From: Cheilinus undulatus
Lineage: Eukaryota > Chordata > Actinopteri > Labriformes > Labridae
Assembly (NCBI RefSeq): GCF_018320785.1
Contig: NC_054882.1
Span: 21,001 to 85,000, forward strand
Length of the DNA: 64,000 bases
Reading direction: 5' to 3'
Part shown: one piece after another, positions 22,601-25,600 of the stretch
Numbering within the stretch: the first letter of the stretch is position 1
How the letters are laid out: each line of letters opens with the position of its first letter
Position numbers and translations under genes: made by a program
Notes under the pieces: generated by a model
Database searches by the model: none
Seen by the model: the letters and a program-made list of their open reading frames with translations, nothing else
Told to the model about the DNA's origin: nothing

Positions 22601-25600
22601 TTGTTTTTGGGGCTAGTTGGTTTTGTTTTTGGGGCTAAGTGGCTCTGTTTTTGGGGCTAGTTGGTTTTGTTTTTGGGGCTAGTTGGCTTTGTTTTTGGGG
22701 CTAGTTGGCTTTGTTTTTGGGGCTAGTTGGCTTTGTTTTTGGGGCTAGTTGGCTTTGTTTTTGGGGCTAGTTGGCTTTGTTTTTGGGGCTAGTTGGCTTT
22801 GTTTTTGGAGTCTAGTTGGCTTTGTTTTTGGGGCTAGTTGGTTTTGTTTTTGGGGCTAGTTGGCTTTGTTTTTGGAGTCTAGTTGGCTTTGTTTTTGGGG
22901 CTAGTTGGTTTTGTTTTTGGGGCTAGTTGGCTTTGTTTTTGGAGTCTAGTTGGCTTTGTTTTTGGGGCTAGTTGGCTTTGTTTTTGGGGCTAGTTGGCTT
23001 TGTTTTTGGGGCTAGTTGGTTTTGTTTTTGGGGCTAGTTGGCTTTGTTTTTGGAGTCTAGTTGGCTTTGTTTTTGGGGCTAGTTGGTTTTGTTTTTGGGG
23101 CTAGGTGGCTTTATTTTTGGGGCTAGGTGGCTTTGTTTTTGGGGTCTAGTTGGTTTTGTTTTTGGGGCTAGTTGGTTTTGTTTTTGGGGCTAGTTGGCTT
23201 TGTTTTTGGGGCTAGTTGGCTTTGTTTTTGGGGCTAGTTGGCTTTGTTTTTGGGGCTAGTTGGTTTTGTTTTTGGGGCTAGTTGGCTTTGTTTTTGGGGC
23301 TAGTTGGTTTTGTTTTTGGGGCTAGTTGGCTTTGTTTTTGGGGCTAGTTGGCTTTGTTTTTGGGGCTAGTTGGCTTTGTTTTTGGGGCTAGTTGGCCTTC
23401 TTGTTGGGGGCTAGTTGGGGCAGCAGTGTCTGATTTTGACCAGAGTCATAGTTTGTCATTTGGCCCTCACGCCCATCCTTCCTTTTTCGCTGATATTTCC
23501 TCATTTTCAGTCGGACTTGTTTGTTTTTTAGGACCACATGGTGACGATGCACGACGTGCTGGACGCCCAGTGGCAGCTGGATCACAACAAAGACGAGTCG
23601 TACCTGCGGAGGGTCATCTTCCCTCTGGAGAAGCTGCTGGTGTCGCACAAACGTCTGGTGATGAAGGACAGCGCTGTGAGTCCCGCCCATCAGTGCCGTT
23701 GGCGTCTGATCGTTTGGTCTGCTAATTCTGAGCTAACCGTGAGTCCGACTCTCTGCAGGTCAACGCCATCTGCTACGGGGCGAAGATCATGCTGCCAGGT
23801 GTCCTCAGGTATGAAGACGGCATCGAGATGAACCAGGACATCGTGGTCATAACTACGAAGGGCGAGGCCATCTGTACAGGTGAGTCACGCCTGTCTGTAC
23901 GGCGTCTTTGACCTAAAGGAACTAAAAAACGCCTGGTTTGTTGTTTTTGAGGATCTGTGAGGTTTTGTCCATCGTTTCCTGTAAACGCGGCCTCGGCGTT
24001 CCCAGGTGTGTTCAGGTGAAGCCACATGATGACCTGATGAGTCAGCAGCTCTCGGGCCGTGATGACCTCCCATCTATCACCCTTGTCTGATGGCTTCTGT
24101 CTGAATGTCTGACTGTGAAACTGATCATTGATCAATCACCTATATTAATCGCCGCCTTGTCACGTCTCTCCTGCAGCGGTCGCTCTGATGACGACGGCGG
24201 TCATCTCCACCTGTGACCATGGCGTGGTGGCGAAGATCAAGAGGGTGATCATGGAGAGGGACACGTATCCCCGGAAGTGGGGTCTGGGTCCGAAGGTGAG
24301 GTTATTGATGGGGGTCGTAGCTCGTGCTGTTCACGCCGATGGACGAATAAAGTTTGATTTGTCTTTTTGTCTGATCAGGCGAGTCAGAAGAAGATGATGA
24401 TCCAGAAAGGCCTCCTCGACAAACACGGGAAACCCAACGGCAGCACGCCAGCCCAGTGGAAGAGCGATTATGTGGACTACAGGTACGTCTCTCTGAAGGG
24501 GCGGGGCTTCATGGTTTTGCAGACAGTTATCCCTCACCGCGCTGGCGTGCTCTCTGAGGGAGTCAGTCTGCTACAGAAACTCTCAGCTGTGAGCTCCTTC
24601 AGTCCACCGTCTGTGGATCTGAACGCTCGCGGCGAGGACAGAAGGCCTACGACAGCCACTTTAACCAAAACATCTAAAACCACTGACATTAACGCCGCTT
24701 TGTTTTTATTTCTGACAGCGCCACGGTGAAAGAGGAGACGGCAGAGACTCCAGCCAAGGTAAACTCACCGTTCCTGACTAGAATAAATCCAGATCTCTGA
24801 TTAGTCAGACCAGGAATCTCAGGTAGTGAGAATCTGGACTAGAGATGTGCTCAGGTGTCAGGATGGAAGGTCTCTCCTAGACTGGCCTGCATGCTAACAG
24901 GCGACTCTGTTTCACTAATATGGGTCATTAATGTGCTGAAACCCACGCCGTTGGCTTTGAGAGGAAATGATTATAATCCAACACTTTTTAACTATATGAG
25001 CTCTTATTACATTATGAGTTGCTACAGGGGTTAGGGGGTCTGAACCAGAGGGGTTAGGGGGTCTGAACCAGAGGGGGTTGGGGGTCTGATGGGTGTGGGG
25101 TCTGAACCAGAGGGGGTTGGGGGTCTGATGGGTGTGGGGTCTGAACCAGAGGGGGTTGGGGGTCTGAATCAGAGGGGGTTGGGGGTCTGAATCAGGCAGG
25201 TACAGGAGCTGCAGGTGTGACATCTCACCTGCTGTGAAGCCACATGATGATCTGATGAGTCAGCAGCTCTCGGGCCGTGGTGACCTCCTATCTATCACCC
25301 TTGTCTGATGGCTTCTCTCTGCCTACTATTACTAATGACGCTGTGAATGTCGACCAGCTCCCTGACCTTTGACCTTTTATACCGCAGAGAAAGAGGGAGG
25401 CGGCAGACAGCGAGGGAGAGGCGACGGCACCCAGCACGCCATCTGCAGACGAGATAAAGAAAGAGAAGAAGAAGAAAAAGAAGGAAAAGAAGATGAAGCT
25501 GGAGGAGGCGGAGGCTGATGGCGCAGGGGCGGAGCCAGAGGAGGCAGCAGGGGAGGAGCCTGAGACAGAGGTGAGCTTAATTAAAACTAGGATGGTTATT

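Follow-up and report, generated by a model that had tools for sequence, protein, structure and literature searches.

Two putative U83-family box C/D snoRNA genes in introns of the dyskerin gene dkc1 of Cheilinus undulatus

Box C/D RNAs in dyskerin genes and the RNAs numbered 83

Box C/D RNAs have already been published in the dyskerin genes of chicken and Drosophila and probably in that of zebrafish. For chicken DKC1, three C/D entries are listed, namely HBI-43 in introns 4 and 8 and two orphans, GGoCD5 (intron 5) and GGoCD6 (intron 9), and the same listing additionally contains ACA36 and ACA56 (PMC2653536). The mfl/Nop60B gene of Drosophila was described as holding four isoforms of one C/D snoRNA (PMC1821038), the copies being located in introns of a variable 3' UTR. 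In zebrafish, a dkc1 snoRNA was located in nucleoli together with fibrillarin (PMC6954239).

The number 83 (or U83) is borne by two different RNAs, namely SNORD117, which carries U83 as an alias (PMC6629867), and SNORD83A/SNORD83B, which are hosted by RPL3 in human (PMC3412847). Chicken "U83a/b" were assigned to 18S-A-429, an adenosine guided from the D box (PMC2653536). Which nucleotide is methylated depends on the guide base five positions upstream of the D box, according to the rule given in a 2011 source in which both SNORD83 and SNORD117 are listed without a known target (PMC3349704).

In the present work, a window of 64,000 nt from contig NC_054882.1 of Cheilinus undulatus was analyzed. 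Like chicken DKC1, as far as the listing describes it, the dkc1 gene of this fish contains two orphan C/D RNA candidates beside candidates for ACA36 and ACA56; GGoCD5 and GGoCD6 (97 nt each) are likened to them by that listing and not by sequence. The likeness to the Drosophila cluster, several C/D isoforms in a dyskerin gene, is likewise one of description. An earlier note on this DNA had proposed that a C/D guide in the gene of the H/ACA enzyme would tie the two guide classes together; the presence of such a guide is supported, and the novelty of the link is weakened by the chicken, Drosophila and probable zebrafish precedents. No U83/SNORD117 or SNORD83 was found as a resident of a fish dkc1 gene among the open-access papers searched.

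Two blocks of the U83 family in introns 10 and 13

The host gene was identified as dkc1. Its 15 joined exons, with GT/AG at each intron, encode a 511-aa protein that matches PDB 7bgb_G ("H/ACA ribonucleoprotein complex subunit DKC1") over residues 1–508 with 836 bits and contains the Pfam domains DKCLD, TruB_N, TruB_C_2 and PUA. This model confirmed that the two blocks are located in introns 10 and 13, on the same strand as dkc1 (Table 1).

Table 1. Putative snoRNA genes, their elements and the host gene dkc1 (positions in the window; a second position refers to copy 2)
Feature	Position	Position in copy 2	Strand	Remarks
Putative U83-family box C/D snoRNA, copy 1 (dkc1 intron 10)	24018–24097		+	RF00137 match 24021–24095
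Putative U83-family box C/D snoRNA, copy 2 (dkc1 intron 13)		25236–25315	+	RF00137 match 25239–25313
Terminal stem, 5' arm GAAGCCA	24018–24024	25236–25242	+	
C box ATGATGA	24026–24032	25244–25250	+	Identical in both copies
C' box	24059–24065 (GTGATGA)	25277–25283 (GTGGTGA)	+	Weakened in copy 2; name C' assigned from the motif
D-box guide ATCTATCACCCTTG	24072–24085	25290–25303	+	Identical in both copies
D box CTGA	24087–24090	25305–25308	+	
Terminal stem, 3' arm TGGCTTC	24091–24097	25309–25315	+	
dkc1 coding region, 15 exons	13657–26256		+	GT/AG at each intron; Pfam and PDB matches
dkc1 exon 10	23759–23879		+	Flanks intron 10
dkc1 exon 11	24177–24295		+	Flanks intron 10
dkc1 exon 13	24719–24758		+	
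dkc1 exon 14	25388–25570		+	Flanks intron 13
SNORD17 candidate, intron 3	17062–17258		+	RF00567, 44 bits (gathering score 45), E 8.7e-08
SNORD53/SNORD92 candidate, intron 4	18361–18446		+	RF00325, 49 bits (46), above cut-off
SNORA36 candidate, intron 8	20165–20296		+	RF00340, 34.8 bits (43), E 0.0055, under cut-off
SNORA56 candidate, intron 12	24517–24657		+	RF00417, 37.5 bits (80), E 0.00023, under cut-off

Judging from their sequence, the two blocks are very probably a pair of paralogous snoRNA genes within introns, with a box C/D RNA of the U83 family (RF00137) as their product. Over 24016–24103 and 25234–25321, 84 of 88 positions are identical. Three of the differences fall in the 80-nt core, at 24033 (C in copy 1, T in copy 2), 24062 (A, G) and 24071 (C, T), while the fourth, at 24099 (G, C), lies just beyond it. 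The three core differences spare the stem, the C box, the guide and the D box, and one of them weakens the C' box of copy 2. Both copies carry a C box of the RUGAUGA type near the 5' end, a CUGA D box near the 3' end, separated from the 14-nt guide by a single T, and a terminal stem of 7 bp with no mismatches; no clear D' box was found in them by eye. The alignment thus bore out the description in the earlier note of two 80-nt blocks that share stem, C box and D box and differ in three bases. The similarity drops sharply at both ends, and the flanks are unrelated, as had also been claimed: the observed local alignment score was reached by 175 of 200 shuffles on the 5' side and by 52 of 200 on the 3' side.

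The comparison with Rfam placed both blocks above the curated gathering score (35 bits) of RF00137, where they scored 46.8 bits (copy 1) and 46.6 bits (copy 2) over positions 1–78 of the 78 of the model. The proposed C/D-box class was thereby supported, and the family, which had gone unrecognized, proved to be held in Rfam under the name "SNORD83". The guide AUCUAUCACCCUUG preceding the D box agrees with the RF00137 consensus at 14 of 14 positions in both copies, and conservation along the alignment is highest at the guide and D-box end. Stem, C box and D box also agree with the consensus of U83 RF00137/SNORD117; the differences are the host dkc1, the presence of two copies and the stretch from the C box to the C' box, which departs from the consensus.

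The blocks are taken as the U83/SNORD117 type and not as the RPL3-hosted SNORD83A/B. In both copies a C occupies the fifth position 5' of the D box and would pair with G, whereas chicken "U83a/b" are assigned to an adenosine, so the RPL3 type was regarded as another family. SNORD83A/B were therefore rejected as an identification: a D-box guide for the 18S adenosine is not found in either copy, and the likeness is confined to the C/D class and the 83 in the name. In mammals U83 is hosted by DDX39B (BAT1), a gene of the MHC. In the addax MHC region RF00137 was reported three times (PMC7053375), which fits this host and supports the U83/SNORD117 type.

In the two DDX39-like genes of Cheilinus undulatus (C4 and C21; three pieces), neither RF00137 at E up to 5 nor the guide with up to two mismatches was found; the C4 gene was searched in two pieces cut at 25560000, and a copy spanning the cut would escape. 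The only U83 host found in this genome is dkc1. Host change is common among snoRNAs (PMC3349704), and for this reason a DDX39B host was not treated as defining for RF00137. The RNA family itself is already known and ordinary, and its host in this fish is a small surprise.

The ends of the putative RNAs lie 75 nt (copy 1) and 68 nt (copy 2) from the next exon, a distance typical of intronic C/D snoRNAs. The modeled minimum free energy of either copy was unremarkable (z-scores of -1.67 and -0.64; 12 of 200 and 50 of 200 shuffles folded as well), as is common among C/D RNAs. When the RNA is folded in silico without proteins, the C' region is predicted to pair with part of the guide. The RF00137 scores, the intact boxes and stem, the sharp ends and the exon spacing support the assignment to U83 snoRNA genes, as do the real dkc1 host, the four further snoRNA candidates in it and the chicken and Drosophila precedents. 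The unexceptional energy, the lack of a clear D' box, the damage to the C' box of copy 2 and the lack of a convincing target count against it.

The guide and its possible partner

By analogy with the family, each RNA would be trimmed out of its dkc1 intron after splicing, and its terminal stem and boxes C and D would bind the C/D core proteins, which for this class are fibrillarin, NOP56, NOP58 and 15.5K. The D-box guide would then pair with an RNA bearing 5'-CAAGGGUGAUAGAU-3' or a near match, in which fibrillarin would methylate the first G of the GGG; a methylated G in this sequence is what the guide predicts. The sequence, boxes, stem, family match, intron position and duplication are observed, and expression, processing and methylation are predicted from the family. 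Beyond host and duplication, this is ordinary snoRNA biology.

U83 was reportedly described by Jady and Kiss in 2000 as an RNA without a complement in rRNA or U6, and artificial substrates are said to have been methylated. Target scans were performed with RNAs of the same genome, namely U1, U2, U6, 7SK, an 18S 3' fragment and the dkc1 pre-mRNA, against shuffles that kept base composition alone. The best site in U6 had 9 Watson–Crick pairs, 2 GU pairs and 4 mismatches of 15, and it was equaled by 20, 23, 27 and 22 of 200 shuffles. With the guide of copy 1 only, the best sites in U1 and U2 were unconvincing, being reached by 35 and 18 of 200 shuffles, respectively. The same applies to 7SK (83 and 88 of 200 shuffles reached the best score) and to the 18S fragment (34 and 32 of 200). 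No convincing site over shuffles was thus found in the snRNAs or the 18S fragment. The earlier note had recognized no target either, in agreement with the 2011 listing of SNORD83 and SNORD117 as targetless (PMC3349704).

The rRNA side of the scan covered 18S fragments corresponding to positions 1502–1604 and 1667–1823 of the 1831 of the model, which were found at one place in the assembly. This place is a stray 18S rRNA gene fragment (C2 near 1921267; piece 2107–2434), and the rest of the unit is absent from the surrounding 24 kb. A 28S piece used as a query gave no match in the assembly, and a contig taken from a viral-contig scan as a source of eukaryotic 28S rRNA was discarded, as it was not rRNA according to Rfam.

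Two further candidate targets were set aside. Human 7SK holds a UCAAGGGU stretch; the same place in the 7SK of Cheilinus undulatus reads CATCGGTATACC. The array at 9519–13284, upstream of dkc1, contains 35 places with at most three mismatches to the complement of the guide; it consists of tandem repeat units with GATGGATGATAGAT and is not a likely target.

The lack of a convincing guide match in U1, U2, U6, 7SK and the 18S fragment may also be read to mean that the two RNAs are orphan C/D snoRNAs that act on mRNA, perhaps on host transcripts, rather than methylation guides for stable RNAs. According to a review, knockdown of the differently hosted SNORD83B alters the levels of three mRNAs (PMC7200641), but SNORD83B is taken here for another RNA. 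The complement in dkc1 pre-mRNA was no better than in shuffles, 14 of 20 and 16 of 20 of which reached the best score. The exact 14-nt complement of the guide was found at five places in the assembly, of which two are the snoRNA copies; the three others are close in number to the two given by the reversed-pattern control, and no Rfam family was found at them, although some of these sites are traversed by short open reading frames. An action on mRNA is thus considered rather unlikely.

The reading preferred here remains that of two guide genes of the U83 family. In its widest form, U83/SNORD117 would guide one conserved non-ribosomal methylation in vertebrates, and the residence of its duplicated genes in dkc1 of this lineage, beside H/ACA RNAs, would tie the supply of this mark to that of dyskerin; this is regarded as improbable. 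If it were true, the identification of a methylated RNA with CAAGGGUGAUAGAU would assign a target to an RNA that has been an orphan for two decades. The present work contributes two well-preserved copies of this orphan guide. What agrees with the family consensus in them is the 14-nt stretch upstream of the D box and not the stretch from C to C', which narrows the target search to RNAs that pair with the D-box guide.

Copy number and other snoRNA candidates in dkc1

When the whole assembly (1.17 Gb in 46 contigs) was searched with copy 1, two matches were obtained, both in dkc1. Copy 2 was recovered with an E-value of 4.3e-32, which excludes chance similarity. A family search of the assembly with RF00137 revealed no third copy among the 60 of 170,535 first candidates that were scored, and diverged copies could escape it; nor was a third snoRNA-like place present among the exact guide-complement matches assembly-wide.

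It is possible, though unlikely, that a working RNA comes from one copy alone, most likely copy 1, and that the other, copy 2, represents a paralogue in decay or of very recent origin. The change of its C' box from GTGATGA to GTGGTGA and its position about 40 nt past a G-rich minisatellite point in this direction, but copy 2 retains the stem, both boxes C and D and the guide, and its score is 46.6 bits compared to 46.8 bits for copy 1. A functionless dispersed repeat or retroposed copy, as near-identical blocks between unrelated flanks might suggest, is hardly credible: the assembly holds only the two matches in dkc1, an A-tail and an evident target-site duplication are absent by eye, and the blocks belong to a known family with its conserved parts intact.

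Together with the two U83-family genes, the candidates in Table 1 show dkc1 as a probable nest of both guide classes, with two H/ACA and four C/D candidates, as in chicken. HBI-43 in the chicken listing corresponds to SNORD17, the family of the intron 3 candidate. The intron numbers of ACA36 and ACA56 in the chicken DKC1 listing are two below those of the SNORA36 and SNORA56 candidates here. Relatives of SNORD53/SNORD92 are listed in WDR43 in chicken, with one in NOL5A (PMC2653536). The forward primer for the zebrafish dkc1 snoRNA (PMC6954239) agrees with the SNORD17 candidate at 21 of 24 bases, while the reverse primer given there has no good match in this candidate, its best match in the window (18 of 26) lying elsewhere.

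Two minisatellites were also observed in the introns. The one in intron 8 (20344–23418) begins about 50 nt 3' of the SNORA36 candidate and extends over 3.07 kb with about 137 copies of the 22-nt unit GGGGCTAGTTGGCTTTGTTTTT. The one in intron 13 (25026–25195) is G-rich, of the GGGGTTGGGGGTCTGA type, and ends about 40 nt 5' of the second U83-family copy.
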